From Massilia niastensis DSM 21313 (GTDB lineage Bacteria; Pseudomonadota; Gammaproteobacteria; Burkholderiales; Burkholderiaceae_D), in NCBI RefSeq assembly GCF_000382345.1, contig NZ_KB908096.1, forward strand, positions 1 through 64,000: a stretch of DNA of 64,000 bases. Reading direction: 5' to 3'. How positions within the stretch are numbered: the stretch's first letter is position 1; each line of letters begins with the position of its first letter. Below, piece by piece: positions 8,068 through 24,326 of the stretch. Both the position numbers and the translations under genes were made by a program. Under the pieces are notes generated by a model. That model saw only the letters and a list, made by a program, of their open reading frames with translations, was not told the origin of the DNA and did no database searches.

Positions 8068-8573
8068 CCGCTCCGGGCGGCGCCGGCTGGTCCGGGCGCA
8101 AGGCGCTCCCGGAGGACGCGGGCTTTCTCGCCGCGCTCTACCTGTCGGCGCGCCCGGACCTGCAAGGCCTGCCGGTGCCGCGCAGCGTCATCCAAGGCAT
8201 CGCGCGCCACCAGCAGCACCTGCAGCGGCAGGACTACGCCCTGCGTTATCCGGACGCGGAGGAATGGGTGATCGAGGCGGGCAAGCTCGCGCCGCGCGCA
8301 GCGGTGGGGCGCCTGGTGCTGCACCGTTCGGCCGCGGCGCTGCGGGTGGTCGACCTGTCGGTGGCGCCGCACGCGCGCCGGCGCGGCCATGCGCGCGCGG
8401 TCCTGGCCTGGCTGCAGGCCGAGGCGCAGGCGGCCCGCCTGGCGCTCCGCCTGCGGGTGCGGCGGGAGAACCATGGCGCGCGGGCGCTGTATGCGAAGAT
8501 GGGATTCGTGACCGTGGCCGACTACGACGCCGCCCTCGAACTGCGCTGGGCGGCGCCCGGTCAGAACGAATAG
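8064..8573 (+). CDS. GNAT acetyltransferase
   Basis: A 169-residue GNAT. The core reads LRVVDLSVAPHARRRGHARAVLAWLQAEAQ (beta4 plus the acetyl-CoA pyrophosphate loop R-R-R-G-H-A), followed by LRLRVRRENHGARALYAKMGF (beta5, alpha4). The likely start is TTG at 8064, overlapping the MFS stop as TTGA, which gives tight coupling; no ATG lies before the conserved core. Its 3' end converges with and overlaps the DUF481 gene by 13 bases. The substrate is unknown. Confidence 0.7.
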   Translation: MTAPGGAGWSGRKALPEDAGFLAALYLSARPDLQGLPVPRSVIQGIARHQQHLQRQDYALRYPDAEEWVIEAGKLAPRAAVGRLVLHRSAAALRVVDLSVAPHARRRGHARAVLAWLQAEAQAARLALRLRVRRENHGARALYAKMGFVTVADYDAALELRWAAPGQNE

Positions 8574-9355
8574 ACCAGGGTCAGCGAGGTCTGGGTGTCG
8601 GTGTTCTTCTTGTCTTCGGAGACGCTGGAGTCGCTGCGCACGCTGAAGCCGGCCTTCATCTGCATGGTGCCGTTGATCTTGGTGCTGAGCGAGGTTTCCG
8701 CCACCGAGTGCGTGTTCGAGGTGCCTTTCTCGACGCTGACCGTTTGCGTGAAGTAGGCCGAGGGGCTCACCTGCCAGCGGAACTGCGCCGCGCCGCGCAC
8801 CGTGAGGCCGCTCTCGTCCTCGCCGGTGTCGCGCTCGCCGCTGAAGTAGCCCGGACCGATCTCGACGTCGAGGGTCTTGTCCTCCGAGTCGTACCAGCGC
8901 GAACCATGACCGATGCCGATGGTCGAATAGCGGGTGTAGGCGCCGAACTTGTCGTTCACGTGGGTGCCGAGCACGAAGGCGCGCCTGTCTTCGCCGAGCA
9001 GCTTGAGCGAGGCCTTGGCCGAGGCCGCGATGCGCTCGGCCGAGCGGCTGGTCTGCCGGGTGCCGTCCTCGTTCTCGTACTCGTCTTCCTTGAAGAAGCC
9101 GCTGACGATGAACTCGTGGCTCCACCTGGCGGTTTCGTGGCGCGCATCGATCTTGCCGGTGATCGAGGTGCCGGTGGTGTTGCCCGAGGTCGAAATCGCG
9201 CCCAGTTCGGCGGAGGTGAACCAGCCGCCATCGGGGATTTCGGGCAGTTCGACGGTGAGCGGGGCATGCACGTCGCCCACGGCGGGGAATTCGGGCGAGG
9301 CGGCGGCCGCGCCCTGCGCGGCCAGTGCCAGCGCCAGGATCGGGAGAGATTTCAT
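8561..9355 (-). CDS. DUF481 (YdiY-like) outer-membrane beta-barrel protein
   Basis: The protein starts with a Sec signal (MKSLPILALALAAQGAAAA) and then has alternating beta strands such as FTSAELGAISTSGNTTGTSI, characteristic of DUF481 'salt-induced outer membrane protein' barrels. It ends in TLVYSF, a terminal Phe preceded by alternating hydrophobics as expected for BAM-assembled barrels. ATG 9355 puts the signal peptide at the N-terminus; ATG 9361 is an alternative. It converges on the GNAT gene. Function in this family is poorly known. Confidence 0.8.
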   Translation of the reverse strand: MKSLPILALALAAQGAAAASPEFPAVGDVHAPLTVELPEIPDGGWFTSAELGAISTSGNTTGTSITGKIDARHETARWSHEFIVSGFFKEDEYENEDGTRQTSRSAERIAASAKASLKLLGEDRRAFVLGTHVNDKFGAYTRYSTIGIGHGSRWYDSEDKTLDVEIGPGYFSGERDTGEDESGLTVRGAAQFRWQVSPSAYFTQTVSVEKGTSNTHSVAETSLSTKINGTMQMKAGFSVRSDSSVSEDKKNTDTQTSLTLVYSF

Positions 9356-9525
9356 CGGCATCTGTGCGGCAGCCACCGCGCAAGGCGCAGCGGGCTTGCC
9401 GGCCCATCGTTCGTGGAAAGAACGCCGCTGCTCCTGGCAGCCGCGAATTGCTCGACATTGTAGCGCAAACCCATTCCGGATGGCATTGTGAACCCATCAA
9501 TTGTGCCGGGGGATTTCTGGAGAGT

Positions 9526-9555
9526 TTGCAGATCCTTGTTCTTCATCGGTACAAT
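9526..9555 (+). promoter_or_regulatory. Candidate sigma-70 promoter for the double kinase gene
   Basis: TTGCAG at 9526 and TACAAT at 9550 are separated by 18 bases, with the ATG 38 bases beyond the -10. It reads away from the DUF481 gene. Confidence 0.4.
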
Positions 9556-9592
9556 CCGCCGCTGCACCGATCCACCGGGAGACCCGAGACAC

Positions 9593-12500
9593 ATGAGAGA
9601 CGAACCGGCCGCCATCGCCCTGTTCAATGGCGGCGGCGCTACCAACGCGGCGCTGCGCGCGCTCGACTGGAGCGCGACCGCGCTCGGCCCGGTGGCGCAC
9701 TGGCCGCCCGAACTGCGCTGCGCCGCCAGCATCTGCGTCCACTCGGACTTCCAGCTCGCGATCGCCTGGGGGCCGGAGTTCGTCTACATCTACAACGAGG
9801 CCGCCAGCTCGCTGTTCGCCGACAAGCACCCCTGGGCCCTGGGGCGGGCGGTGGCCGAGGTCTGGCCCGAGATCTGGCCCACCGTCGGCCCGATGCTGGA
9901 GTCGGTGCGGGCGAGCGGCAAGGCCACGCGCAGCGACGACCTCGAACTCATGCTGGAGTTTCCCGGCCGGGTCGAGGAAACCTACATCACGTTCTCGTAC
10001 AGCCCGATCTTCCTGCCGGAGGGGACGGTCGGCGGCGTGTTCATCGCCTTCATGGACACCACCGGGCGGGTCCTGGCCGAGCGCCGCCAGCGCATCGTGG
10101 CCGGCCTGGCGAGCCAGGTGGCGCTGCGCGAGCGCGGCGACGACTCGCTGGCGCGGGTGCGGGCGGCGCTGGGCGATGCGGGGCCCGACCTGCCCCTGGT
10201 CGCGCTGGTGCAGCCCGGCGCCGACGGCGCACCCCGGCTGGTCTTGTGCACCGGCGTGCAGCGTCCGCTCGAGCCGGCGCGCGCGCGCCAGGTGGCGGCC
10301 TGGGCCGGCCGCTACCTCGATGCGCCGGAGCCGCTGCTGGCCGCCGCCGCGCCGCTGCTGGACCTGGCCGGCGCCTGCGGCCCCTGGCAGGAACAGCCGC
10401 GCCAGATGCTGGTCATGCCCTTCGGGCGCGGACGCCACGACGCCGCCTGCGGCGTGCTGCTGATGGCGCTCAATCCGCGCACCGCGCCCGACACCCGCTA
10501 CCGCGACTTCCTCGATTCGATCGCCGGCCACATCTCCCATGCGGTGACCCTGGCCGAGTCCGAGGCCGCCGAGCGCCGCCGCATCGAGGCCCTGGCGGAG
10601 CTGGACCGCAGCCGGTCGCAGTTCTTCACCAACGCCAGCCACGAGCTGCGCACGCCCCTGACCCTGATCATGGGGCCGCTGGACACCATGCTGGAACGCG
10701 AGGGCGAGGTGCCGCCGGCGCTGCGCGAACCGCTCGAGATGGCGCAGCGTAACGCCCAGCGCCTGCACAAGCTGGTCAATTCCCTGCTCGATTTCGCCCG
10801 CATCGAGGCCGGGCAGCTGCCGCCGGCGCTGGAAGCGATCGATCCCTGCGCCAGCGCCGCCGAGATCGCGGCGCTGTTCCGCTCCGCCGTCGAGGCGGCC
10901 GGCCTGGCGCTGACGGTGCGCTGCGAGGAAGGGCGCGGCGCCGCGCTGCTCGACCGCGACATGTGGGAAAAGATCGTGTTCAACCTGTTGTCGAACGCGT
11001 TCAAGTACACCCATGCGGGCGGCATCGAGATGGCGGTCGGGCGCGAGGACGGCTGGCTGGTCCTGCGCGTGAGCGACACCGGCATCGGCATCGCCGCCGA
11101 CGAGGTCGGCCGCGTCTTCGAGCGCTTCTACCGCAGCACGCGCGCCGCCGGCCGCAGCGCCGAAGGCAGCGGGGTCGGGCTGGCCCTGGTGCAGGAGCTG
11201 GCCCGGCTGCACGGCGGCGATGTCGCGGTCGACAGCGAGGCGGGGGCCGGGGCGCGCTTCACCGTGCGGCTGCCCTGGCGCGCCGCCGAGGGCGGCGCTG
11301 CGACCTTGCGGCAGGTGCGCACCGGGTTCACCGATGAAGTACGGCGCTACGGAATGCGCGCCAACGCCGATGGCGGCGCGCTCCATCCCGCAGGGCCGCA
11401 GGCGCCCATGACGGCGGTCGTGGTCGACGACGACGCCGACGTGGTGCGCTACATCGAACGGCTGCTGGGCGACAGTTGCCGGGTGGTGGCGGCGCGCGAC
11501 GCCGAACACGGGCTGGCCGCGGTGCGCGCGAGCGCGCCCGACCTGGTCCTGGTCGACGTCATGCTGCCCGGCGCCGACGGGCTCGAACTGGTGCGCCGCA
11601 TCCGCGCCGAGCGGCCGATCCAGACCGTCTCGGTGCTGGTGCTGTCGGCGCGGGCCGGCGAGGAGGCGCGCCTCGACGCCCTCGACGCCGGCGCCGACGA
11701 CTACCTGGTCAAGCCCTTCAGCGGGCGCGAACTGATCGCGCGGGTACGCTCGCACGTGCAGATGGTGCGCCTGCGGCGCACGGCGCTGGAACAGGAAGGC
11801 GTGCTGCTGCGCCAGATCGAGGCGGTGCGCAACGACCTGGCCGGGGTGCTCGACGGCACCAGCGACACCGTGATCTTCCTCGACCGCGAGCTACGGGTGC
11901 AGGCGATGAACGAGGCCGCGGTCGCCGCCACCGGCCTGAGCCGGGCCGAGGCGATCGGACGGCCGCTGCCGGAACTGCGGCCGGGCGTGGCCGGCTCGGC
12001 CCTCGAGCATGCGCTGCGCGGCGCGCTGACCGCGCGCGCCGGCATCACGGTCGACCATTTCCAGGCCGAGACCGGGCGCTGGTTCGAGGCGCGCTGCTAT
12101 CCTGCGCCGCAGGGCGCGATGCTGTTCGCCAGCGACATCACCGACCGCAAGGAGGGCGAGCGCGCGCTGCGCGAAACCCAGGCCGCGCTCGAATGGCGGG
12201 TGGAGGAACGCACGCGCGAGCTGCGCATGGCCAACCAGCTGCTGGCGGCGGTGTTCGACCGCGCGCCGGGCGGCATCGCGATCAGCGACGGCCGCGGGCG
12301 CCTGGTGCACGTGAACGCGGCCTACGCCGAGCTCACCGGCGTGGCCGAGGCCCAGCTGGCCGGGCGCGCGCTGGCCGACTGGATCGAGCCGGCCGGCCTG
12401 GCGCGCCTCCAGGCCGGCGCAGCGCGCCTGCTGGCCGGAGAATGCGCCTGGTTCGAGGCCGAGGTGCGCTACCGGCGGCCGGCCGGCGGCAAGCTGTGGG

Positions 12501-13294
12501 TCAGCCATTTCGTGTCGCTGCTCGGGCCCGCCTGGCACGGCGAGCGCTGCTTCGTGACGATCGCGCGCGACATCACCCGGCGCAAGCGCGACGAGGCCGA
12601 GCGCCAGGCCGCGCAGGGCGAGCTGCGGGTGCTGTACGAGCGCCTGCAGACGGTGCGCGAGAACGAACGCAAGGCCCTCGCGCGCGAGGTCCACGACCAG
12701 CTCGGGCAGATCCTGTCGGCGGCGAAGATCGACATCAAGCTGCTCGAGGACGGCCTGCGTCCGGGCGCGGAGATGGTGCGCGAGCGGATCGTGGCCGAAC
12801 TCGGCTCGGCCAGCGCCACCATCGAGCGGGCGATCGTGCTGGTGCGCGAGATCGCCACCGAGCTGCGCGCGCCCGAGCTCGACGAACAGGGGCTGTACAC
12901 GGCGATCGCCTGGCATGTGCGCGACTTCGAGCGCCGCACCCGGATCGCCTGCCACGTCACCTTCGAGCCGGCGCGGCCGCACCCGAACCGGGCGGCCGCC
13001 GCGGCGCTGCTCGGCATCCTGCAGGAGGCGATGACCAATGTGCTGCGCCATGCCCAGGCATCGAAGGTCTGGGTCAGCCTCGAACGGCGCGGCACCGTGC
13101 TGGTGCTGCGCGTGCGCGACGACGGTGTCGGCATCGCGCGGCCCGGCCAGCGGCGCGGCGGCGCGCTCGGCCTGCAGGGCATGCACGAGCGCGCCGAACT
13201 GGTGGACGGCAGCCTGCTGATCGGATCGCTGCGGCCGCGCGGCACCCTGGTCGCGGCCCGGGTCCCCCTCATGCAACGCAGAGGAAGACAATGA
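9593..13294 (+). CDS. Double-core hybrid histidine kinase: PAS-GAF-HisKA-HATPase-REC-PAS-PAS-HisKA_3-HATPase
   Basis: A 1233-residue soluble sensor with no membrane segment visible. Approximate order: PAS-like input (10-150), GAF-like (170-330), a classic kinase core with NASHELRTPLTLI (about 346) and the N-box EKIVFNLLSNAFKYT (about 459), then a receiver (605-725, acceptor Asp in VDVMLPGADG and Lys in LVKPF). Two PAS domains follow (750-1010), then a NarX-type HisKA_3 (REVHDQLGQILSAAK, about 1031) and a second HATPase. ATG 9593 follows GGGAGACCCGAGACAC. It overlaps the NarL-type regulator by ATGA, so that regulator is the likely partner of the C-terminal core. The receiver is the likely target of the first core, making an internal relay plausible. 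Confidence 0.9.
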   Translation: MRDEPAAIALFNGGGATNAALRALDWSATALGPVAHWPPELRCAASICVHSDFQLAIAWGPEFVYIYNEAASSLFADKHPWALGRAVAEVWPEIWPTVGPMLESVRASGKATRSDDLELMLEFPGRVEETYITFSYSPIFLPEGTVGGVFIAFMDTTGRVLAERRQRIVAGLASQVALRERGDDSLARVRAALGDAGPDLPLVALVQPGADGAPRLVLCTGVQRPLEPARARQVAAWAGRYLDAPEPLLAAAAPLLDLAGACGPWQEQPRQMLVMPFGRGRHDAACGVLLMALNPRTAPDTRYRDFLDSIAGHISHAVTLAESEAAERRRIEALAELDRSRSQFFTNASHELRTPLTLIMGPLDTMLEREGEVPPALREPLEMAQRNAQRLHKLVNSLLDFARIEAGQLPPALEAIDPCASAAEIAALFRSAVEAAGLALTVRCEEGRGAALLDRDMWEKIVFNLLSNAFKYTHAGGIEMAVGREDGWLVLRVSDTGIGIAADEVGRVFERFYRSTRAAGRSAEGSGVGLALVQELARLHGGDVAVDSEAGAGARFTVRLPWRAAEGGAATLRQVRTGFTDEVRRYGMRANADGGALHPAGPQAPMTAVVVDDDADVVRYIERLLGDSCRVVAARDAEHGLAAVRASAPDLVLVDVMLPGADGLELVRRIRAERPIQTVSVLVLSARAGEEARLDALDAGADDYLVKPFSGRELIARVRSHVQMVRLRRTALEQEGVLLRQIEAVRNDLAGVLDGTSDTVIFLDRELRVQAMNEAAVAATGLSRAEAIGRPLPELRPGVAGSALEHALRGALTARAGITVDHFQAETGRWFEARCYPAPQGAMLFASDITDRKEGERALRETQAALEWRVEERTRELRMANQLLAAVFDRAPGGIAISDGRGRLVHVNAAYAELTGVAEAQLAGRALADWIEPAGLARLQAGAARLLAGECAWFEAEVRYRRPAGGKLWVSHFVSLLGPAWHGERCFVTIARDITRRKRDEAERQAAQGELRVLYERLQTVRENERKALAREVHDQLGQILSAAKIDIKLLEDGLRPGAEMVRERIVAELGSASATIERAIVLVREIATELRAPELDEQGLYTAIAWHVRDFERRTRIACHVTFEPARPHPNRAAAAALLGILQEAMTNVLRHAQASKVWVSLERRGTVLVLRVRDDGVGIARPGQRRGGALGLQGMHERAELVDGSLLIGSLRPRGTLVAARVPLMQRRGRQ

Positions 13295-13932
13295 CGACAA
13301 CGACAAGCCTGGTAATCGCCGACGACCACGAACTGCTGCGCGAAGGCGTCAAGAAGATCATCCGCTCGGCGCCCGGCCTGCGGGTCGTGGGCGAGGCGGC
13401 CGACCTGGCGCGCACCCTGGCCCTGGTGGCCCAGCACCGGCCCGACGTGGTGGTGCTCGATATCTCGCTGCCGGGCCACGAGGGGCTGGAAGGACTGGAG
13501 GAACTGCGCCGCGCCTTCCCCGAACAGCGCGTCATCATGCTCAGCATGTACGCCGAGGAGCGCTACGCGCTGGCCGCGCTCAGGGCCGGCGCAGCCGGCT
13601 ACATCACCAAGACCATGGCGGCCGAGGAGCTGGTCAAGGCGATCCGCAAGGTGATGGAGGGCGGCACCTATATCGGTCCGCGGCTGGCCGAGCTGCTGGC
13701 CCAGGAGGCCTGCGCGCCGGCGCCCCAGGCGCCGCACGAGCGGCTGACCGCGCGCGAGGGCGAGATCCTGGCCCTGATCGGGGCTGGCCTGCAAATCAAG
13801 CAGGTGGCGGCCGAACTGGGCATCAGCATCAGTTCCGTGAACACCTACCGCAACCGGATTTTCCAGAAGATGGGCCTGTCGACCAATGGCGCGCTGATCC
13901 GTTACGCCGTCCAGCACGGCCTGGTGGAATGA
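13291..13932 (+). CDS. NarL/FixJ-family response regulator
   Basis: A 213-residue regulator. The receiver starts VIADDHELLREGVKK with acceptor Asp in VVVLDISLPGHEG and Lys in AGYITKTMAAEEL. The C-terminal LuxR-type helix-turn-helix is LTAREGEILALIGAGLQIKQVAAELGISISSVNTYRNRI. It is translationally coupled (ATGA) to the double kinase, whose HisKA_3 core is the type that pairs with NarL regulators. Targets are unknown; the inverted repeats immediately downstream at 13950-14076 are candidates for its sites. Confidence 0.92.
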   Translation: MTTTTSLVIADDHELLREGVKKIIRSAPGLRVVGEAADLARTLALVAQHRPDVVVLDISLPGHEGLEGLEELRRAFPEQRVIMLSMYAEERYALAALRAGAAGYITKTMAAEELVKAIRKVMEGGTYIGPRLAELLAQEACAPAPQAPHERLTAREGEILALIGAGLQIKQVAAELGISISSVNTYRNRIFQKMGLSTNGALIRYAVQHGLVE

Positions 13933-13949
13933 TCCATACTGCATGAGTT

Positions 13950-14076
13950 GTTGTCGTTTGACAACGACTTCGGGTTACTGCTTGTCGTTAAATCTACGAC
14001 AGGACATGTCCGATCTGCGACGCGGCTTACCCGCCCCGCATTGTGTCTGATTGGTCCAATCATTGTTAAATCAATG
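13950..14076. promoter_or_regulatory. Cluster of five inverted repeats between the NarL-type regulator and the Wsp-like operon
   Basis: This 321-base spacer (13933-14253) is AT-richer than its surroundings and holds consecutive short palindromes: GTTGTC-N4-GACAAC (13950-13965), TGTCGT-N7-ACGACA (13983-14001), GGACATGTCC (14002-14011), ATTGGTCCAAT (14050-14060) and CATTG-N6-CAATG (14061-14076). TGTCGT recurs in the first two. They are candidate regulator sites or a promoter control region for the chemosensory operon. I see no gene in the spacer. Confidence 0.45.
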
Positions 14077-14253
14077 ACTTGGCACAATATGCCGGTGACG
14101 AGGGGACATTGCTGTGACGCTCGGGGAGGGCCGGGCCCGCCAGCGCCGGATCCGTGCACCCGGCTGGGCTTGGGTAGGATGGGGGCATCGCCGTAAGGCA
14201 TCACGAGTTTCCATTCCTGTCAGCAGCCGTGCGTGCGCGGCTGCCTTGTACCG

Positions 14254-14727
14254 ATGAGCATCCCAAGCACGCTAGGCCTGATCGAGTTCGAATGCCGCGG
14301 ACACCGCGTCGCGCTGCCGCTGCAGCACGTGCGGCGCGTGGTCGCCAGCGCGCAACCCACACCGCTGCCGGCGGCCGGCGAGATCGTGCTCGGCGTGCTC
14401 AACGTGCGCGGCGAGGTGGCCGTGGTGCTCGACCTGTGCCGCCGCCTCGGCTTCGCGCCAAGGCCGATCCAGGCTTCCCAGCAGATCGTGCTGGTTCAGC
14501 TGCCGGGCCTGCTCACCGCCCTGGTGGTCGACCGCGTGATCGGCGTGTCCGAACGCCTGCCCGCCGCAAGCATGCCCGCGGAGCTGTGCACGGCGCCGTT
14601 CGTGGCCGGGGTGGTGCGCCTGGACGACGGCCTGTGCCTGATCGTCGATCCGGAACGCTTCCTGTTCGAGGATGAACGGCGCCGCCTGGCGCGCGCGCTC
14701 GAGGGAGTCGGCGATGCCGTCCACTGA
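14254..14727 (+). CDS. CheW-type coupling protein (WspB-like position)
   Basis: A 157-residue single CheW domain: LIEFECRGHRVALPLQHVRRVV, then GVLNVRGEVAVVLDLCRRLG, then a C-terminal VDRVIGVSER ... GVVRLDDGLCLIVDPERFL. It links chemoreceptors to the CheA kinase. ATG 14254 is chosen because the upstream frame (14233) adds only seven unlike residues. It overlaps the CheR gene by 14 bases. As first gene of a CheW-CheR-CheW-MCP-CheA-CheB cluster it takes the role of WspB, although sequence alone does not prove orthology. Confidence 0.85.
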   Translation: MSIPSTLGLIEFECRGHRVALPLQHVRRVVASAQPTPLPAAGEIVLGVLNVRGEVAVVLDLCRRLGFAPRPIQASQQIVLVQLPGLLTALVVDRVIGVSERLPAASMPAELCTAPFVAGVVRLDDGLCLIVDPERFLFEDERRRLARALEGVGDAVH

Positions 14728-16066
14728 GCGCATGGCGCGCCTGGCGCAGCGCGTGGAAACCGAGCTGGGCCTGCATTTCGCGGCGCTGCGCCAGCGCGAC
14801 CTGGACCAGGCCGTGGGGCGGATGGCGCGCGCCGGCGGATTCGCCGACCAGGACGCCTTGCTCGACTGGCTGCTGGGCGGCGCCTGGGACCGGCCCAAGG
14901 CCGACCTGTGCGCGCGCCACCTGACCATCGCCGAAACCTATTTCTTCCGCGAGCCGCGCGCCTTCACGCTGCTGTGCGAGGTCGCGCGCGCCAAGCTGGC
15001 GACCAACCCGCAGGCCAGCCTGCGGGTCTGGAGCGCCGGCTGCTGCACCGGCGAGGAGCCGTATTCGATGGCGATCGCGCTGCGCCAGGCGCTGCCCGGG
15101 CTCGACCCGGGGCGCATGGCCATCCTCGGCACCGACCTGAACGCCGCCAGCCTAGCCACGGCGCGCGCCGGCCTGTACCGCGACTGGTCGTTCCGGCGCA
15201 GCGATCCGGCGCTGCGCGCGGCCTGGTTCAGCGCCGCCGGACCGGGCCTGTACGCGCTGCGTCCGGACGTGCGCGCCCAGGTCCGCTTCGCCCAGCTGAA
15301 CCTGGCGCAGCCGCTGTTTCCATCGGCGGCCGGCGGGATCGCCGGCATGGACGTGATCTTCTGCCGTAACGTGCTGATGTATTTCTCGCGGCGTCAGATG
15401 CAGATGACCATCGCGCGCCTGCGGGCCTGCCTGGTCGAAGGCGGCTGGCTGGTGGTCAACCCGAGCGAAGCATCGAGCGAGCTGTTCGCCGGCTTCGCCG
15501 CCACCTACCATCCGGACGCCATCTTCTACCGCAAGCTGCCGGACCGGGCGCCGGTGCGCGCGCCGGCCGGCGCACGGGCGGCGATCGCACCGGCCCCGGC
15601 GCCAGCGCGCGTCCTCCCGCTCCCGGACGCTCCCGTGGCGGCGCCGGCGCCCCTGGCCGCCGCGCCGGATCCGGGCGCCGTGATCGCACGGGCGCGCGAG
15701 CTGGCGCGGGCCGGGGAGCCGGCGGCGGCATTCGACGCACTGCTGGATGGCGCCGGCCGCTGGCCGCTGGAGGCCGGGATCCACCTTGCGGCGGCCGAGA
15801 TCGCGCTGGAGCAGGGCGAGGCCAGCTCCGCCCTGGTCCACCTGCAGCGCCACCTTTACCTCGAGCCGGATTCGATCCTGGCCCATTACCTGAGCGCGAT
15901 CGCCCACCTCGGCGAGGGCAGCCGCGAGCGCGCCCTGCGCGAGTTCGCCGCCAGCGACGCACTGCTCGACAGGCTGGCCGACGACGCCGTCGTGCCGGGC
16001 GCCGACGGCTGGCAGGCCGCCAGCCTGCGCGCATCGGTGCGCGCCTGGAAGGGCCGGGTCGGATGA
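14714..16066 (+). CDS. CheR methyltransferase with C-terminal TPR extension (WspC-like)
   Basis: A SAM-dependent glutamate methyltransferase for the receptor. The N-terminal helical domain is followed by AETYFFREPRAF, then the SAM motif WSAGCCTGEEPYSMAIAL, then DVIFCRNVLMYFS. After residue ~275 comes a Pro/Ala linker (APAPAPARVLPLP) and a TPR-like helical repeat region (LVHLQRHLYLEPDSILAHYLSAIAHL). CheR-TPR fusions are characteristic of WspC and related alternative systems. ATG 14714 follows GAGGGAG and overlaps the CheW gene. The stop overlaps the next gene by ATGA. Confidence 0.9.
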   Translation: MPSTERMARLAQRVETELGLHFAALRQRDLDQAVGRMARAGGFADQDALLDWLLGGAWDRPKADLCARHLTIAETYFFREPRAFTLLCEVARAKLATNPQASLRVWSAGCCTGEEPYSMAIALRQALPGLDPGRMAILGTDLNAASLATARAGLYRDWSFRRSDPALRAAWFSAAGPGLYALRPDVRAQVRFAQLNLAQPLFPSAAGGIAGMDVIFCRNVLMYFSRRQMQMTIARLRACLVEGGWLVVNPSEASSELFAGFAATYHPDAIFYRKLPDRAPVRAPAGARAAIAPAPAPARVLPLPDAPVAAPAPLAAAPDPGAVIARARELARAGEPAAAFDALLDGAGRWPLEAGIHLAAAEIALEQGEASSALVHLQRHLYLEPDSILAHYLSAIAHLGEGSRERALREFAASDALLDRLADDAVVPGADGWQAASLRASVRAWKGRVG

Positions 16067-16662
16067 CGGGGGCACAGGACTTCGACTGGGCCGCGATCGC
16101 GCGCCGCCTGGAACTCAGCATGCTGGAAGCGGAGCACGGACGTTCCGGCGCGGACGTGCTGCGCGAACGCAGCCTGGCGCTGGCGCGGCCGGCGCCGCCG
16201 CTGCTCGACGCCATGGACGGCGCCGCGCTCGAGGTGCTGGCCTTCGAGGTGGCGGGCGAGCGCTATGCCGTCGAGACCCGCTGGGTGGCGCAGGCGACCC
16301 GCATGCCGGCGCTGACCGCGCTGCCCGGAATGCCCAACCATGTGGCGGGCATCGCCGCCTTCCGCGGCCAGGTGGTGGCGGTGCTCGACCTGCGCACGCT
16401 GCTGGCCTTGCCGCTGTCCAGGCTGACCGAGCCCGCGGGGCTGGTCATCCTGCAGGGCCGGGACATGGAATTCGCGCTGCTGGCCGATGCCGTCACCGGC
16501 GTGCAGCGCTACCCGCGCGCCGCGCTCCCCCCCGGCCTGCCGGCTTTCGGCGGGCGCCGCGGCGGCTACCTGCTGGGCGTCGCCCCCGACCAGACCGCGA
16601 TCCTCGACGGCGCCGCCATGCTGGGCGACGCCTCGCTGGTGGTGCACTGGGACCAGACCTAG
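16063..16662 (+). CDS. Second CheW-type coupling protein (WspD-like position)
   Basis: A 199-residue protein with a ~60-residue N-terminal extension (FDWAAIARRLELSMLEAEHG) before a CheW domain: VLAFEVAGERYAVETRWVAQ and GIAAFRGQVVAVLDLRTLLAL. Two CheW proteins, the second longer, is the Wsp arrangement. The extension lacks the Cys-rich segment I recall in Pseudomonas WspD, so this is an analogue by position rather than a clear orthologue. Start is coupled to cheR by ATGA. Confidence 0.85.
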   Translation: MTGAQDFDWAAIARRLELSMLEAEHGRSGADVLRERSLALARPAPPLLDAMDGAALEVLAFEVAGERYAVETRWVAQATRMPALTALPGMPNHVAGIAAFRGQVVAVLDLRTLLALPLSRLTEPAGLVILQGRDMEFALLADAVTGVQRYPRAALPPGLPAFGGRRGGYLLGVAPDQTAILDGAAMLGDASLVVHWDQT

Positions 16663-16670
16663 GAGATTGA

Positions 16671-18305
16671 ATGAACCTGTTTTCCAACGCGAGTACCCGG
16701 ACCAAGCTGATCGCGGGCTTCGGCCTCCTGATCCTGCTCCTGAGCGCGGTCAGCGTGCTGACCTACCGCACCACCGGGGCGCTGCGGGAATCCCAGCGCG
16801 CGCTGTTCGAGGACGACCTGGCGACGGCCTTCAACGTCGTCAGCCTGCGCAACGAGCTCAATCGCGAACGGGTCGCCATGCTGTCGCTGGCGGTAGCCGA
16901 TGCCGCCGACCAGCCGGCGCTGTTCGAGCGCGTCAGCCTGGCCGCGCGCAGGGTGGGCGAACTGGGCGCCAGGCTGGACGCGAACGTCGGGCGCGACGCG
17001 AGCTTCGGCCAGGCCTACGCCGAGCTGAATGCCCTGCTGCGCAACTACACGAGCCTGCGCGACGAGCAGGTCATGCCGCTGCTGAAGGCGGGCCGCCAGG
17101 CCGATGCCGGCCGGCTCGTCGCCGGCACGCTGCAGCGCCGCTTCGACCCGCTGCGCGAGGTCGCCGACCGCATCAGCACCGAACAGTTCGAGGAGGCCGC
17201 GAAGCGCATGCACGACACCGAGGTCCTGGTCGACGACGCGCGCCGCACCCTGGTCGCCTGCAACCTGGCCGCGCTGCTGATGGCCGCCGCGCTGGTGTTC
17301 TGGCTGGACCGCGCGATCGCCGCCCCGCTCAAGGAAGCGACCCTGGTGGCCGGACGCATCGCCACCGGCGACCTCACGGTGGCGGTGCCGGCATCGCGCG
17401 GACGCGACGAAGTCGGCCGCCTGCTGGAGGCGCTTGGCCAGATGGTGGTGTCATGGCGCCAGCTGATGACCGAGACCAACAGCGGGATCGCGACCCTGGG
17501 CGCCGCGGCCGGCGAGATCCTGGCCAGCACCATGCAGGGCACGGCCGGCACCTCGCAGACCGCGGCCGCCGTCAGCGAGACCACCACCACGGTCGAGGAA
17601 GTCAAGCAGACCGCGCTGCTGGCGAGCCAGAAATCGCGCCTGGTGTCGGATGCCGCCCAGGCCGCGGCCAGTACCGCGGCGCGCGGCCGCCAGGCGGTCG
17701 AAGGCGGGGTGCGCGGCATGGAGAGCGTGCAGGAAAAGATGGAGTCGATCGCCGCCACCATCGTGCGCCTGTCCGAGCGCAGCCAGGCGATTGCCGAGAT
17801 CATCGTCAGCGTCGGCGGGCTGGCCGACCAGTCGAACCTGCTGGCGGTGAACGCCGCGATCGAGGCCGCCAAGGCCGGCGACCAGGGCAAGGGCTTCGCG
17901 GTGGTGGCCCAGGAAGTGCGGGCGCTGGCCGAGCAGTCGCGCCAGGCGACGCGTCAGGTGCGCGAGATCCTGGGCGACATCCAGAAGTCGATCGGCGCGG
18001 CGGTGATGATCGCCGAGCAGGGTGCCAAGACGGTGGCGACGGGCGTGCTCCAGGCCGGCGAGGCGGGCGAGGCGATCCGCACCCTGGCCGAGAGCATCGC
18101 CGACGCGGCCGAGGCGGCGGCCCAGATCGCCGCCTCCAGCCAGCAGCAGCTGGCGGGCATGGACCAGGTCGCGCTGGCCATGGACAACATCCAGCAGGTC
18201 ACCGCCGAGAACGCGGCCAGCTCGCGCCAGACCGAGCAGGCGGCCCAGAACCTGCACGAGCTGGGCCAGAAGCTGCGCGAGGTCAGCGAGCGGTTCAAGG
18301 TCTGA
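16671..18305 (+). CDS. Methyl-accepting chemotaxis protein (WspA-like position)
   Basis: A 544-residue receptor. TM1 is at about residues 12-32 ([21 protein letters not shown]), followed by a helical periplasmic domain of ~160 residues of the four-helix-bundle type and TM2 at about 197-217. A HAMP domain ([22 protein letters not shown]) precedes the cytoplasmic signalling hairpin, whose tip reads [20 protein letters not shown]. Paired Gln/Glu sites in flanking helices fit methylation by the neighbouring CheR/CheB. It starts nine bases after the CheW gene with GGAGATTGA upstream. The stimulus is unknown; Wsp receptors respond to surface contact, an analogy only. Confidence 0.92.
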
Positions 18306-18312
18306 GAGCCCG

Positions 18313-20472
18313 ATGAGCGAACCCGGCCAGGCCTTCCGCCATAGACTGCTGGCGATCTTCGCCGACGAGGCGCGCGGCCACCTGCGCCGCATCGAGGCCG
18401 GTCTGATGGCCTACGAGCAGGCCGGCGACGACGCGGCGCGCGCCGGCGCCCTGGAATCGGTGCTGAAGGCGCTGCACACGCTGAAGGGCGCGGCGCGCGC
18501 GGTCGACCTCGACCAGCTGGAACGCCTGTGCCACGCCGTCGAGGGACTGTGCGCGGCGGCGCCGGGCGCGTCCGCGCTGGCAGCCGGCGAACTCGACCGG
18601 CTGCACCAGGCCGTGGCACTGGCCGGGGAGCTGGCGGCCGGCGCCGGCGGCCGGGCGCGCAACCAGGCGGCCGCGCTGTGCCTGCAGCTCGACCAGGCCG
18701 CCGCGCGGCTGGCGCGGGAAGCGCCGGCGCCGCTTGCTTCGGCGGCTCCCGCCAGGCCGTCCGCGCCGGCGGCGCCGGACCCGGTGGCGCCGCCGCAAGC
18801 GGATACGCCCGTATCCGCGCCGTTGCCCGACTTCGTGCGGGTGCGCGCCGCCCAGCTCGACGCCATCCGCACCGAGACCGAAGCGCTGCTGGCCTCGGAA
18901 CTCAGCCTGAACCACCAGATCGGCGAACTGCGCGCGCTGGCGGCCGGCATGGGCGGCCAGGACGGCGGCCGCGAACCCGGCGCGGCCGCCGCGCTGCGCT
19001 GCGAACAGCTGGCGCAGGCGCTCGCCACGACCTGCGCCGGGCTGGCGGCCACCCGTACCCGGATGATGGGCGCGGTGCTGGAAACCGCCCTGGTGCCGTT
19101 CTCTGAGGCGCTGGACGAGCTGCCGGCCCTGGTGCGCAAGCTGGCCCGGGAGCGCGGACGCGAAGTCCAGCTGGCCGTGGAAGGCGCCGCGGTCCAGGTC
19201 GACCGGCGCGTGCTCGGGGCGATCCGCGAAGCGCTGATCCACCTGGTCGCGAACGCGGTCGACCACGGGATCGAACCGGTGCAGGCGCGCCTGGCGGCAG
19301 GCAAGGGCGCGGCCGGGACCCTGCGCGTCGCGGTGCACCAGCCCGACGCGCGCCAGGTGCTGCTGCGGGTGAGCGACGACGGCGCCGGACTCGATGCGGC
19401 GGCGCTCGCGGCCGCGGCCGCGCGCAGCGGCATGTCCGGGGCCGAGCTGGACGCCCTGGGCGAACAGGAGCGCCTGCGCCTGGCCCTGCGGCCCGGGGTC
19501 AGCACCCGCGCCGAGGTGGGCGCGCTGTCGGGGCGCGGCATGGGGCTGGCGGTGGTGGCCGACGCCATCGCGGCGGTCGGCGGCGAGCTGTCGCTCGAGA
19601 GCGGGGTGGGCCGGGGTTCCCTGTTCGAGCTGCGCCTGCCGGTCAGCCTGGCCAGCCTGCGCGCGCTGGTGGTGGAGGCGGGCGGACGGCGCTATGCGGC
19701 GCCGCTCGCGGCCCTGGGCGCAGTACGTGCGGTGCGCGCGGGCGAGGTGCGCACGGTGGAAAACCGCGCCACCATCGTCGCCGACGGCCGCGTGCTGCCG
19801 CTGGTGCGGCTGGCGGTGCTGTTCGGGGCGCCGGCGCCGGAACCCGGCGCCGCCAGCGGCGTGGCCCTGCTGGTGCAGGGCGCGGCCCAGCCCTACGCAC
19901 TGCTGGTGGACGCCATCCTGGCGGAACAGGACGTGCTGCCGCGCGGGCTCGGACCCCTGTTGCGGCGGGTGCGCCACTTCACCGGCGCGGTCCAGCTGGG
20001 CGACGGCGCGCTGGTGCCGGTGCTCGGCCTGGACGATCTCGGCGCCCGCGCCCGCCATGGCGGCGCAGGGCCGGCGCCCGCCATGCCCACAGCGCCGCAG
20101 GCCGCGGGCGGCCGCCATGTGCTGGTGGTGGAGGATTCGATCACCTCGCGCCTGCTGCTCAAGCACATCCTGGAAGGCGCCGGCTGCCGGGTCGACACCG
20201 CCGCCGACGGCCTGGAAGCGCTGTCGCGCCTGCGCCGTGAACGCTTCGACGCCGTGGTGTCCGACATCGAGATGCCCCGGCTCGACGGCCTGGCCCTGAC
20301 CGCGGCCATCCGCGCCGATCCGGACACGGCGCAGCTGCCGGTGATCCTGGTGACCTCGCTGCACACGTCCGCCGAGCGCGAGCGCGGGCTGCTGGCCGGG
20401 GCCGACGCCTACCTGACCAAGGGCGCGTTCGACCAGGACCAGCTGCTCGCGACCTTGCGCCGCCTGACCTGA
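18313..20472 (+). CDS. CheA-REC hybrid kinase (WspE-like)
   Basis: A 719-residue chemotaxis kinase with its own receiver. Order: Hpt with phospho-acceptor His55 in ALHTLKGAARAV, an Ala/Pro linker, dimerisation helices, and an ATPase core with N-box HLVANAVDHGIEPV and G-boxes SDDGAGLD and GRGMGLAVVADAI. A CheW-like regulatory domain (LVVEAGGRRYAAPLAALG) follows, and a C-terminal receiver has VVEDSITSR, acceptor Asp in VVSDIEMPRLDG and Lys in YLTKGAF. A CheA with C-terminal REC is the WspE/FrzE layout. It likely phosphorylates the CheB and the REC-EAL protein downstream, with the fused receiver acting as a sink. Confidence 0.92.
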   Translation: MSEPGQAFRHRLLAIFADEARGHLRRIEAGLMAYEQAGDDAARAGALESVLKALHTLKGAARAVDLDQLERLCHAVEGLCAAAPGASALAAGELDRLHQAVALAGELAAGAGGRARNQAAALCLQLDQAAARLAREAPAPLASAAPARPSAPAAPDPVAPPQADTPVSAPLPDFVRVRAAQLDAIRTETEALLASELSLNHQIGELRALAAGMGGQDGGREPGAAAALRCEQLAQALATTCAGLAATRTRMMGAVLETALVPFSEALDELPALVRKLARERGREVQLAVEGAAVQVDRRVLGAIREALIHLVANAVDHGIEPVQARLAAGKGAAGTLRVAVHQPDARQVLLRVSDDGAGLDAAALAAAAARSGMSGAELDALGEQERLRLALRPGVSTRAEVGALSGRGMGLAVVADAIAAVGGELSLESGVGRGSLFELRLPVSLASLRALVVEAGGRRYAAPLAALGAVRAVRAGEVRTVENRATIVADGRVLPLVRLAVLFGAPAPEPGAASGVALLVQGAAQPYALLVDAILAEQDVLPRGLGPLLRRVRHFTGAVQLGDGALVPVLGLDDLGARARHGGAGPAPAMPTAPQAAGGRHVLVVEDSITSRLLLKHILEGAGCRVDTAADGLEALSRLRRERFDAVVSDIEMPRLDGLALTAAIRADPDTAQLPVILVTSLHTSAERERGLLAGADAYLTKGAFDQDQLLATLRRLT

Positions 20473-20481
20473 GGAGGCAGC

Positions 20482-21534
20482 ATGATCCGGGTCCTGGTGG
20501 TCGACGATTCTCCTTCCGTGCAAGAGCTCCTGGTGCAGGTCCTGGGCGCCGATCCGGCGATCCAGGTGCTCGGCTGCGCCGCCGACGGCGAGCAGGCGCT
20601 CGAGATGGCGGCGCGCCTGCGTCCCGATGCGATCACCATGGACCTGCACATGCCGCACATGGACGGCTACCAGGCCATCCGCCGCATCATGCAGACCTGC
20701 CCGGCGCCGATCGTGGTGGTCAGCGGCTGCGCCGACCGCGCCGAAGTCGAGGCCAGCTTCCGCGCCATCGAGGCCGGCGCCCTGGTCCAGGTGCACCGGC
20801 CCTACGGACCCGGCCACCCGGAGCACGAGGCGAGCGCGCGCGCGCTGGTGCGCACCGTCAAGTCGATGGCCGAGGTGCGCGTGGTGCGGCGCTGGGCGCC
20901 GGAATCGCAGCGGACGCCCCGCGCCGGGGGGGCCGGGCGCGGGCGCCGGCTGGTGCTGGTGGGCGCCTCCACCGGCGGGCCGGCGGTGGTGCGCGACATC
21001 CTGGCCCAGCTGGGCCAGGAGTTCCCGCTGCCGGTGCTGATCGTCCAGCACATCTCGGCCGGTTTCACCCAGGGCCTGGCCGACTGGCTGGCCCAGGCCA
21101 GCGGCTTTCCGGTGGCGGTCGCCGCCCACGGCCAGCTGCTGGCCCCGGGCACGGCCTGGCTGGCGCCGGAACGCTCCCAGCTGGCGGTGACGCGCGAGCT
21201 GCGCGCCCGGCTCTCCCTGGGGGCGCCGGAGCACGGCATGCGGCCGGCCGTGTCGCACCTGTTCCGCTCCGTCCCGGCCGAGCTGCGCGCGGCCAGCGTG
21301 GCGGTGCTGTTGACGGGAATGGGCAAGGACGGCGCCCAGGAACTCAAGCAGCTGCGCGAGGACGGCGCCGTCACCATCGTGCAGGACCGCGCCAGCGCGG
21401 CGGTGTACGGCATGCCGGGCGAAGCCCTGCGGCTGGGCGCGGCGCAGCTGGTGCTCGATCCGGTCCGGATCGGGAAGGCGCTGCATGCGATTGCAAACAA
21501 CCCGGGGCGCAGCCTGGCGCTCCTCGGCTACTAA
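20482..21534 (+). CDS. CheB methylesterase (WspF-like) with Lys-to-Arg change in the receiver
   Basis: A 350-residue receiver plus methylesterase. In the receiver, VVDDS, acceptor Asp54 (ITMDLHMPHMDG) and the Ser of VVVSG are present. The normally invariant Lys before Pro is Arg106 (QVHRPYGPGHP). The catalytic domain shows GASTGGP (Ser nucleophile), VQHIS (His) and TGMGKDGA (Asp). The GPGHPEHE linker resembles WspF-type proteins. It removes receptor methyl groups set by the CheR. It starts nine bases after cheA with GAGGAGG upstream. The Arg could weaken phosphorylation-dependent activation. Confidence 0.9.
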   Translation: MIRVLVVDDSPSVQELLVQVLGADPAIQVLGCAADGEQALEMAARLRPDAITMDLHMPHMDGYQAIRRIMQTCPAPIVVVSGCADRAEVEASFRAIEAGALVQVHRPYGPGHPEHEASARALVRTVKSMAEVRVVRRWAPESQRTPRAGGAGRGRRLVLVGASTGGPAVVRDILAQLGQEFPLPVLIVQHISAGFTQGLADWLAQASGFPVAVAAHGQLLAPGTAWLAPERSQLAVTRELRARLSLGAPEHGMRPAVSHLFRSVPAELRAASVAVLLTGMGKDGAQELKQLREDGAVTIVQDRASAAVYGMPGEALRLGAAQLVLDPVRIGKALHAIANNPGRSLALLGY

Positions 21535-21593
21535 GAAGAACAGCGATGAGCAACCAGAACGACAAGCATGATGACGTACACGAGCGAGGAAAC

Positions 21594-24326
21594 ATGGTCG
21601 AGATCCTGATCGTCGAAGACAGCGCTACCCAGGCGGAGCAGCTGTCGCACCTGCTGACCGGGCAGGGCGGCTACCGGGTGCGCATCGCCCGCGATGGGGC
21701 CGCCGGCCTGGCGGCGGCGCGCGCCGCGCCGCCGACCCTGATCGTGAGCGACATCGCGATGCCGGTGATGGACGGCTTCACCCTGTGCCGGGAAGTGAAG
21801 CAGGATCCGCAGCTGCGTGACATCCCCGTGATCCTGCTGACCTCCCTGACCAGCCTGTACGACGTCATCCGCGGGCTCGATTGCGGCGCCGACAACTTCA
21901 TCCGCAAGCCCTTCGACGGCCGCTACCTGCTGGGGCGCATCGGCTTCATCCTGGCCAACCGCGCCTTCCGCAGCAACGAGCGGGTCCAGCTGGGAATGCG
22001 GGTCAACCTGGGCGGGCAGACGCATTTCATCACGGCCGAGCGCCAGCAGATCTTCGATCTCCTGATCTCGACCTACGAGGAAGCGATCCAGATGACCGAG
22101 GAGCTCAAGGCCCAGCAGGAGCGGATCGCCCGGTCCTACCAGTCGCTGGAAGGACTGTACCGGATCGCGGAAGCCTTGAATCCGGCGCTGACCGAGCGCG
22201 GCGTGGCGGGCGGCGCGCTCGAGCGCGCACTCGACCTGCCCGGGGTGACCGGCGGCTGCATCGCCCTGTACGACGATGCCGGCAGCTTGCGGGTGGTCGA
22301 GGCGCGCGCGCTCGGCGTGGCGATCGGCCATGGCGCCAGCCTCGACTGCCAGTGTACGCGGCGCCTGTTGTCGGGAGAGCTGCGCGGTCCGGAGCTGGTC
22401 GGCGAGTGCGAATCACTGGGCGGGATGCACGCCTGCGTGCCGCTGATGGCGGGCGGACGCAGCCTCGGCCTGCTGCACCTGGCGACCGCGCCCGGCCTGC
22501 TGGGCGAGGACGACATGCAGCTGCTGGGCACGATCGGCAACCAGATCGGGGTGGCGACCGAACGCGCCCACCTGTACGCCCACATGGAGGCGCTGGTGCA
22601 GGAGCGCACCGAGGCGCTGCGCTCCGAGCGCAACCTGCTGTCGGCGGTGGTCGACACCACCGACGCGCTGGTGGTGCTGTGCGACCGCGAGGGCCGCATC
22701 CGGCTGTACAACCGCGCCTGCCAGGAAGCCCTGGGCTGGAGCCCGGAAGAGGCGCTGGGGCGCCCGATGTGGGAGATCTTCCAGCTGCGCGACGATCCGT
22801 CCGCGGTGCGCCGCTTCCTGCACGACCTGCCGCTCGAGAAGCTGCCGCGCCGGATCCAGGGCGAATGGCTGACCCGTACGGGAGAGCTGCGTTCGGTGAT
22901 CTGGTCCACCGCGCCGCTGCGCGACAGCGCGGGGCGGATCGAGGCGGTGCTGTCCACCGGGCTCGATGTGACCGAGCTGCGCGGCGCCGAGGACCGCCTC
23001 CGCTACCTGAGCAATTACGACAGCCTGACCGGCCTGCCCAACCGCGCGCTGCTGCGCGACCGCGTCGACCAGCTGCAGGAAAAGATCCGTGCCGGCGGCA
23101 AGGTCATGGGCTTCATCCTGATCAGCGTCGAGCGCCTGCCGCTGGTGCGCGAAACCCTGGGTGTGGATGCCGAACGCGACCTTCTGCAGCAGGTGGCGCG
23201 CCGCCTGTGCGCCTTGTCCGGCGGCGAGACCGTGGCGCGCTATTCCGAGGCCACGTTCGCGCTGGCCACCCGGCGCGCCGGTGTGGACGAGCTGTCGCAG
23301 TTCGTGCGCCAGGTGCAGACCGCGATGCGCCAGTCCTTCCACTGGGAGGAGGAAGAGCTGCACCTCGACGCCAGCCTCGGCATCACGGTATGCCCGAACG
23401 ATGGCGAGGGCTACGAGCTGCTGGCCCAGCGCGCCGAGAGCGCCCTGCGCCTGGCCGGGGAAAGGGGCGGCGAACGCTACGAGTTCTACCGCCCCGAGTT
23501 CAACCAGGACGCCAGCGAGCGCTTCAAGTTCGAGAGCGCGCTGCGGCGCGCCGTCGAGCGCGACGAGCTGCTGCTGCACTACCAGCCGCAGCTCGACCTG
23601 AAGACCGGGGCGATCATCGGGGTCGAGGCGCTGGTGCGCTGGCGCCATCCGGAACTGGGCATGGTGCCGCCGGGCCGCTTCATCGGCGTCGCCGAGGAGA
23701 CCGGGCTGATCCTGCAGATCGGCGAGTGGGTGCTGCGCAGCGCCTGCGTGCAGTGCCGCGCCTGGCAGGAGGAGGGATTGCGGGCCGTGCCGGTATCGGT
23801 CAACCTGTCGGCGCGCCAGCTGTCCGGGGACGTGGCCGGGACGGTGCGCCGGATCCTGGACGAGACCGGACTCGCGCCCCGGCTGCTGGAGCTGGAACTG
23901 ACCGAGACGGCCTCGATGGACGACCCGGAGAAGACCTTCGAGGTGCTGTGCCGCCTGAAGGAGATGGGCGTGCGGCTGGCGATCGACGACTTCGGCACCG
24001 GCTATTCGAACCTGAGCTACCTGAAACGCTTCCCGGTCGACAAGCTCAAGCTGGACAGGTCGTTCGTGCAGGACATCGCCTCCGACCCCGACGACCTGGC
24101 GATCTCGCGCGCCGTGATCGCCATGGCCCATGGCCTGCGCCTGACGGTGATCGCCGAGGGTGTCGAGAACCAGGACCAGCTGTCCCTGCTGGCGCAGAAC
24201 GGCTGCGACGAGATGCAGGGATTCCTGTTCAGCCGTCCGGTGCCGGCCGAGGATTGCGGCCGGCTGCTGCGCGAGAATGCCGCGCTGCCCTTGTCCGGCG
24301 CGCGGCGCGCCGGCGGCCGGCGTTGA
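21594..24326 (+). CDS. REC-GAF-PAS-degenerate GGDEF-EAL protein, predicted c-di-GMP phosphodiesterase output
   Basis: A 910-residue protein from ATG 21594 (GAGGA five bases upstream); ATG 21546 is an alternative start. The receiver has VEDSAT, acceptor Asp in IVSDIAMPVMDG and Lys in FIRKPFDG. GAF (190-330) and PAS (345-465) follow. The GGDEF domain keeps the fold (LSNYDSLTGLPNRALL) but its active loop reads RYSEATFAL instead of GGDEF, near residue 550, so it should not make c-di-GMP. The EAL domain looks complete: EALVRWRHP (about 677), ELTETASM, DDFGTGYSNLSYL, DRSFV. It occupies the place of WspR, a cyclase, in the operon, but its predicted activity is the opposite. Confidence 0.9.
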   Translation: MVEILIVEDSATQAEQLSHLLTGQGGYRVRIARDGAAGLAAARAAPPTLIVSDIAMPVMDGFTLCREVKQDPQLRDIPVILLTSLTSLYDVIRGLDCGADNFIRKPFDGRYLLGRIGFILANRAFRSNERVQLGMRVNLGGQTHFITAERQQIFDLLISTYEEAIQMTEELKAQQERIARSYQSLEGLYRIAEALNPALTERGVAGGALERALDLPGVTGGCIALYDDAGSLRVVEARALGVAIGHGASLDCQCTRRLLSGELRGPELVGECESLGGMHACVPLMAGGRSLGLLHLATAPGLLGEDDMQLLGTIGNQIGVATERAHLYAHMEALVQERTEALRSERNLLSAVVDTTDALVVLCDREGRIRLYNRACQEALGWSPEEALGRPMWEIFQLRDDPSAVRRFLHDLPLEKLPRRIQGEWLTRTGELRSVIWSTAPLRDSAGRIEAVLSTGLDVTELRGAEDRLRYLSNYDSLTGLPNRALLRDRVDQLQEKIRAGGKVMGFILISVERLPLVRETLGVDAERDLLQQVARRLCALSGGETVARYSEATFALATRRAGVDELSQFVRQVQTAMRQSFHWEEEELHLDASLGITVCPNDGEGYELLAQRAESALRLAGERGGERYEFYRPEFNQDASERFKFESALRRAVERDELLLHYQPQLDLKTGAIIGVEALVRWRHPELGMVPPGRFIGVAEETGLILQIGEWVLRSACVQCRAWQEEGLRAVPVSVNLSARQLSGDVAGTVRRILDETGLAPRLLELELTETASMDDPEKTFEVLCRLKEMGVRLAIDDFGTGYSNLSYLKRFPVDKLKLDRSFVQDIASDPDDLAISRAVIAMAHGLRLTVIAEGVENQDQLSLLAQNGCDEMQGFLFSRPVPAEDCGRLLRENAALPLSGARRAGGRR

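Follow-up and report, generated by a model that had tools for sequence, protein, structure and literature searches.

We analysed a chemosensory operon of Massilia niastensis DSM 21313 that lies in a stretch of 64,000 nucleotides (contig NZ_KB908096.1, positions 1 to 64,000), hereafter called the window, from a genome of 6.59 Mb in 139 contigs. The gene order is CheW-CheR-CheW-MCP-CheA-CheB-output, where MCP stands for methyl-accepting chemotaxis protein and the output is a large regulator with domains of cyclic di-GMP (c-di-GMP) turnover. Neighbouring genes share bases or are separated by very few, a layout which suggests that all seven form a single transcript. The features, by window position, are:

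14254-24326, plus strand: whole operon, seven genes
14254-14727, plus strand: CheW1, coupling protein (Pfam CheW, 93 bits)
14714-16066, plus strand: CheR methyltransferase with a C-terminal TPR-like region (Pfam CheR, 133.5 bits), overlapping CheW1
16063-16662, plus strand: CheW2, coupling protein (Pfam CheW, 81.5 bits), overlapping CheR
16671-18305, plus strand: MCP with 4HB sensor and HAMP, between CheW2 and CheA (Pfam MCPsignal 129.9, 4HB_MCP_1 38.2 and HAMP 38.2 bits)
18313-20472, plus strand: CheA kinase with a C-terminal REC fusion (Pfam Hpt, HATPase_c, CheW and Response_reg)
20482-21534, plus strand: CheB, REC and methylesterase (Pfam Response_reg and CheB_methylest, the latter 180 bits)
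21546-24326, plus strand: output protein of 926 amino acids, REC-linker-GAF-PAS-degenerate GGDEF-EAL (Pfam EAL 262, GGDEF 78 and REC 81 bits)
21594-22145, plus strand: REC and linker module of the output protein (amino acids 17-200), common to EAL-type and kinase-type outputs

These Pfam matches bear out the gene set proposed in a first-pass annotation made from the sequence alone, namely two CheW, CheR, MCP, CheA-REC, CheB and a REC-GAF-PAS-GGDEF-EAL output. The annotation also called the methyltransferase CheR-TPR; the CheR half of that name is well founded, but the TPR half is weak (TPR_19 at E 1.7, below the Pfam cut-off). Among the CheR proteins of three relatives, the TPR region passes several cut-offs in L096, one in L043 (TPR_19, 27.1 vs 25 bits) and none in L044, where L and G numbers denote loci and genomes of our set. 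CheW1 begins with ATG at 14254, with GTG at 14233 as an alternative start. Residues S163, H190 and D283 of CheB, which we take to be the catalytic triad, are invariant among 45 aligned CheBs. The model of the CheA dimerisation domain has three matches elsewhere in the genome but does not pick up the window CheA.

The GGDEF loop of the output protein reads SEATF (RYSEATF), as the first-pass annotation had stated. Aligned with intact relatives, the metal-binding (Mg) D is changed to S, the base-binding N to R and the GD pair to ER; we assume for these positions the roles that they have in PleD. The I-site RxxD before the loop, read against WspR, is absent as well (SGGE). By contrast, all nine catalytic residues of the EAL domain are in place (E, N, E, D, D, K, E, E and Q); these are presumably the metal- and substrate-binding residues of EAL phosphodiesterases. 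The loss of a catalytic residue that we looked for on alignment was not found. Because the GGDEF loop and the GTP-site positions are lost while the EAL is intact, the output very probably acts as a phosphodiesterase alone, predicted, as first proposed, to degrade c-di-GMP and not to make it.

The same domains could be used in another way, with the EAL as a c-di-GMP receptor like that of FimX or LapD and the output acting by protein contact. Several c-di-GMP receptors have a degenerate GGDEF, and the window output is a large multidomain protein. However, its nine intact EAL residues disfavour a FimX-like receptor, and its best matches point elsewhere. The best sequence match in the PDB is 4rnh (a motility regulator, which we take to be MorA) at 370 bits, followed by 5m3c (a GGDEF-EAL protein deposited as a diguanylate cyclase) at 337 bits, vs 94 bits at most for FimX entries. 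The best NCBIfam matches are named phosphodiesterases, all below curated cut-offs (DibA, 475 bits), vs 111 bits for LapD; the model for PvrR, a REC-EAL phosphodiesterase, scores 219 bits, also under its cut-off. We regard the receptor role as highly improbable.

According to the first-pass annotation, this is a Wsp-like system by gene set and layout with a phosphodiesterase in the place of WspR, so that the known output would be reversed if phosphorylation activates it. The gene set does agree, CheA carries a REC, and the 4HB domain of the window MCP has also been reported for WspA, as far as the available passages of PMC8846402 go. The layout differs. Wsp loci have the order MCP-CheW-CheR-CheW-CheA-CheB-WspR, also annotated in Azoarcus sp. 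KH32C, and an MCP precedes all other che-type genes of the operon strand in 17 of the 19 Wsp-clade loci (L055 starts at CheA and no MCP was detected in L120; some CheW genes of Wsp loci escaped the single-sequence search). In the window the MCP stands directly before CheA, which departs from the wspA-wspF order with the MCP first.

Trees of CheA and CheB together (56 and 69 rows, both final trees being quick trees) gave the same separation. All 19 Wsp rows were on one side of a branch with a support of 100 that excluded the window, and the window and four orthologs formed a subclade (support 100) inside a separate clade of 39 rows (support 97). Forcing this subclade to join Wsp cost 94.5 log units, with a p value of 0.0018 in the approximately unbiased (AU) test that is optimistic because the groups were defined once a first tree had been seen. 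The Wsp set included L120, whose output had no detected GGDEF, the truncated locus L055, and L057, which lacks a WspR; the reference loci of this set from plasmid searches were Azoarcus KH32C (annotated), Burkholderia stagnalis and Cupriavidus EM10 (both without annotation). Rows without CheB (L062, L094 and L138), without CheA (L146 and L147) or without either (L145) were left out. Among the 14 weaker family CheA matches that were fetched (L049-L062), 12 fell in the Wsp clade and L050 outside it; L062 was not placed.

The terminal protein is of neither the WspR nor the WspH type, and no WspR match at E ≤ 1e-60 was found in the source genome. As a reference, the WspR of locus L052 matched 3bre, which we take to be WspR of Pseudomonas aeruginosa, at E 5e-106. 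Gene order, the CheA and CheB trees, the AU test and the terminal protein led us to reject Wsp as the family of the window operon. The available passages of PMC8552884 define Wsp by wspA-wspF synteny and describe 794 clusters, all ending in WspR or WspH; the window operon fails that definition and does not contradict the survey. A true Wsp R-system with a replaced WspR is very improbable. Because the gene order differs and the trees separate the operon from the Wsp clade, we assign it by these two lines of sequence evidence to another, non-Wsp, lineage resembling the alternative cellular function (ACF) class, with no reversal of Wsp output. The first-pass annotation had raised the prospect of a phylogeny outside the Wsp/ACF class: the trees put the cluster outside Wsp, and its sequence is compatible with membership of ACF. 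A multidomain output regulator, an ACF-class feature, is present in the gene cluster by Pfam; of CheR-TPR, another such feature, the CheR is clear and the TPR lies below the Pfam cut-off in the window and in L044 and above it in L043 and L096. In addition, the passages of PMC10782961 at hand place a CheY-like domain on CheA mostly in the F3, F5, ACF and Tfp classes.

WspR matches occur in 47 of 145 family genomes and the window lineage in at least six of them (weaker CheA matches having been fetched in part), with both in G016 only; with six holders, mutual exclusion within a genome is not shown statistically. The WspR-like REC-GGDEF gene of G016 (L145, contig C38) stands without any other detected che gene nearby. 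At E ≤ 1e-50 the genome, which also holds the window operon type, yields a single CheA, and this WspR looks like an orphan regulator. In the Wsp-clade operon of G081 (L057, 4833-7568), CheB is followed by a PAS-GGDEF-EAL protein with an intact GGDEF and no detected REC in place of WspR.

To place the window operon we examined its own lineage, sampled mostly within its own order. CheA orthologs with 51-56% identity over the matched stretch were found among the 145 family genomes in G118, G115, G016 and G103, and two copies with 42-44% identity in G021. The four near orthologs have the same gene order and output type as the window. A search of 399 order genomes gave 38 with a CheA match at E ≤ 1e-83, own genome included, not all of which are of the window lineage. 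A scan of named genomes with the window CheA returned 12 loci, most matching the REC end only, and none looked like a near ortholog; plasmid searches gave only distant CheA or GGDEF-EAL relatives. Across the 39 lineage rows, window included, CheW-CheR-CheW-MCP precedes CheA in 31, the other eight having an MCP or nothing there (several contigs or stretches are cut). In 37 of these rows the gene directly after cheB encodes a REC protein; L119 ends at that point, and no output was detected after CheB in L126, a Niveispirillum locus from the plasmid searches.

Twenty-six outputs of the lineage are of the REC...GGDEF-EAL type (25 tree rows and L146, the output of L107's genome). Their GGDEF loop is non-canonical in 20, with readings such as NADSF, SADYF, GDSSF and SEATF. 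All nine EAL residues are present in 22, window included; L133 has one E changed to D, and L105, L135 and L143 were unreadable to the end. Output type was unassigned in six rows (L047, L107, L118, L119, L126 and L137). The output gene is split into two frames inside the EAL in L135 (5324-8729) and L143 (131-3619), which is either real decay or an assembly error.

GGDEF decay appears in two degrees. Outside the window subclade, the 15 members with a broken loop retain the base-binding N (15/15), the GD (15/15) and mostly the metal-binding D (13/15). The window subclade has lost the N (5/5), the D of GD (5/5) and the metal-binding D (4/5, L046 keeping it). A GTP-sensing GGDEF, of which we take Caulobacter PdeA to be an example, is unlikely in the window subclade, where base- and metal-binding positions are changed, and may occur in the 15 others. 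Mean identities of EAL vs GGDEF were 67.5 vs 51.4% among the window's five and 67.7 vs 53.2% among 12 of the 15 other broken-loop members (L105, L135 and L143 were not full length and were left out), as against 79.3 vs 82.9% among four of the six outputs with an intact loop (L048 and L101 left out). These values fit a relaxation of constraint on GGDEF domains whose loop is broken, with the reservation that the intact four come from one genus.

Possible cyclase genes also occur in the lineage. In four genomes (L098, L107/L146, L132 and L137) cheA and cheB are separated by one or two GGDEF-only genes, at:

L098 11038-14003: HAMP-GGDEF and PAS-GGDEF
L107 5941-9861: GGDEF-only
L132 1809-3935: GGDEF-only
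L137 2475-3833: GGDEF-only

Six such genes have the loops GGDEI, GGDEF, GGDEF, GGEEF, GGEEI and GGEEI. Their position ties the operon to c-di-GMP, and a cyclase and a phosphodiesterase in one chemosensory operon (L098, L107, L132 and L137) are possible from the gene content.

Mean identity among the five orthologs is 87% for the linker and 75% for the REC, the most conserved parts of the output protein. The REC-linker module had matches in 25 of 37 searched genomes at E ≤ 1e-50 and in 33 at E ≤ 1e-20, the weakest being only REC-like. It heads both EAL-type and kinase-type outputs, with the linker visible in the kinase-type L095, L103, L109 and L117. This bears on a reading in which the output is mainly a ligand sensor and the chemosensory genes have no control over it. 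GAF and PAS do lie between REC and EAL and could act alone; however, conservation of the REC and linker and the REC protein behind cheB in nearly every row argue against such independence, and we consider it improbable.

We favour, with a probability of about 0.66, the reading that this is a chemosensory operon of the ACF type, outside Wsp, which acts through a c-di-GMP phosphodiesterase; the probability applies to the mechanism without its sign. In this proposal an MCP-CheW-CheA array would control CheA autophosphorylation, and CheR and CheB would adapt the receptor. Phosphate from CheA would go to the output REC, to CheB and to the REC of CheA itself, which may act as a phosphate sink. Through GAF-PAS, the conserved REC-linker would relay the signal to the EAL and so change c-di-GMP hydrolysis, with GAF and PAS probably adding a second, cytoplasmic input. 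The GGDEF would no longer make c-di-GMP and would probably not bind GTP, serving as a scaffold or interaction surface. A precedent for phosphotransfer from a CheA-REC hybrid to a multidomain regulator comes from Rhodospirillum centenum, where, in the passages available from PMC3868531, CheA3 with its own REC mutated phosphorylates the REC of the multidomain CheS3.

Several points weigh against this proposal. The mechanism is a prediction from sequence. Combining a dead GGDEF with a live EAL is ordinary in itself: of 45 scored GGDEF-EAL proteins of the genome, 13, window output included, pair a non-canonical loop with all nine EAL residues; operon context and conservation are what count. In this audit, which began from 53 EAL matches, GGDEF, GGEEF, SGDEF, AGDEF and GGDDF counted as canonical and some of the 13 differ from a canonical loop by one letter; 50 of 52 fetched stretches were scored (L198 and L199 were too weak), and the 53rd match, a fragment, was left out. 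Within the lineage, six of the 26 outputs have an intact GGDEF loop (L048, L100, L101, L108, L116 and L140), five of them from one genus, and the broken loops cannot be counted as 20 independent events. The intact-loop group used in the identity comparison is a single genus whose sequences are more alike. Finally, eight of the 39 tree rows have a histidine kinase as the output behind the same CheA/CheB backbone (by Pfam in L103 and L117), so c-di-GMP is not the target throughout the lineage; L147 (G281), outside that count, also has a kinase-type output after CheB.

The sign of the REC control is not fixed by anything in the sequence. The most likely sign, only slightly favoured, is that phosphorylation raises phosphodiesterase activity and lowers c-di-GMP. 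Under the opposite sign the phosphorylated REC would inhibit the EAL, and CheA activity would raise c-di-GMP as in Wsp. As a parallel, phosphorylation of REC1 in R. centenum CheS3 is proposed, in the same passages of PMC3868531, to turn a kinase output off. We found no decisive counterpoint to this variant, which we consider rather unlikely, with an appreciable chance all the same; it lies inside the favoured mechanism and does not detract from its probability.

An EAL output in ACF clusters is already in print. The passages available from PMC3447774 (2012) assign CheR-TPR clusters to ACF and count about 20 regulators that carry GGDEF, one that carries EAL and two that carry both; PAS or GAF is present in some. 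These clusters resemble the window operon in joining a REC regulator with c-di-GMP domains to the same kind of genes; by contrast, those passages describe no lineage, no pattern of broken GGDEF with intact EAL and no test of an EAL output. In the open-licence literature, outside which most subscription papers lie, we found neither a study of a dedicated EAL output of a chemosensory operon nor the lineage-wide pattern of broken GGDEF and intact EAL.

Among described systems, the Wsp R-system (WspABCDEFR of P. aeruginosa and P. fluorescens, and of Azoarcus KH32C) shares gene content, a CheA with REC, and CheB followed by a c-di-GMP regulator; it differs in its first-placed MCP, its REC-GGDEF cyclase of about 340 amino acids and its separate clade. 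The Wsp H-system of Burkholderia likewise ends in a regulator that is not a cyclase, there a hybrid histidine kinase. However, as the available passages of PMC8552884 describe it (no H-system sequence was in our tree), it has Wsp synteny with wspH 5' of the operon, and no EAL is reported. Che3 of R. centenum (CheA3, CheS3 and CheY3) has a CheA-REC hybrid, two CheW, CheR, CheB, an MCP and a multidomain REC regulator; compared by its description in those passages of PMC3868531 and not by sequence, it resembles the kinase-output members of the window lineage. Its output differs in being a kinase that feeds CheY3 and not a phosphodiesterase. GGDEF-EAL phosphodiesterases such as MorA and PvrR-type REC-EAL regulators resemble the EAL part of the output by the matches given above; by contrast, in the parts of the literature covered they are not found at the end of a chemosensory operon.

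The surface-sensing Wsp system, the best-studied ACF system with direct control of c-di-GMP, raises this messenger, a biofilm signal. If true, a recurrent lineage ended by a phosphodiesterase would mean that the same machine of receptor, kinase and adaptation is used to lower it. Because the relatives share the REC module and differ in what comes after it, the lineage offers a clean test of one module driving different outputs (EAL, GGDEF-EAL and histidine kinase). More tentatively, and at somewhat less than even odds, a whole lineage of arrays parallel to Wsp may be dedicated to c-di-GMP destruction. The cyclase half would have decayed, the phosphodiesterase half would have stayed constrained and kinase outputs would have been exchanged behind the shared REC-linker, with the window subclade as the extreme case in which the GTP site is gone.

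Directly upstream of the operon (9488-13932) lie a large hybrid sensor kinase with a GTG start and then a LuxR-type response regulator, both named by eye. G+C content is 72-75% over window positions 8001-24000 vs 64-70% in most of the remaining window and 58% in the first 4 kb. The presence of four near orthologs in the family, together with the lack of any CheA match above 39% identity among seven genomes of the same genus, would be consistent with a sporadic gain or loss of the operon.

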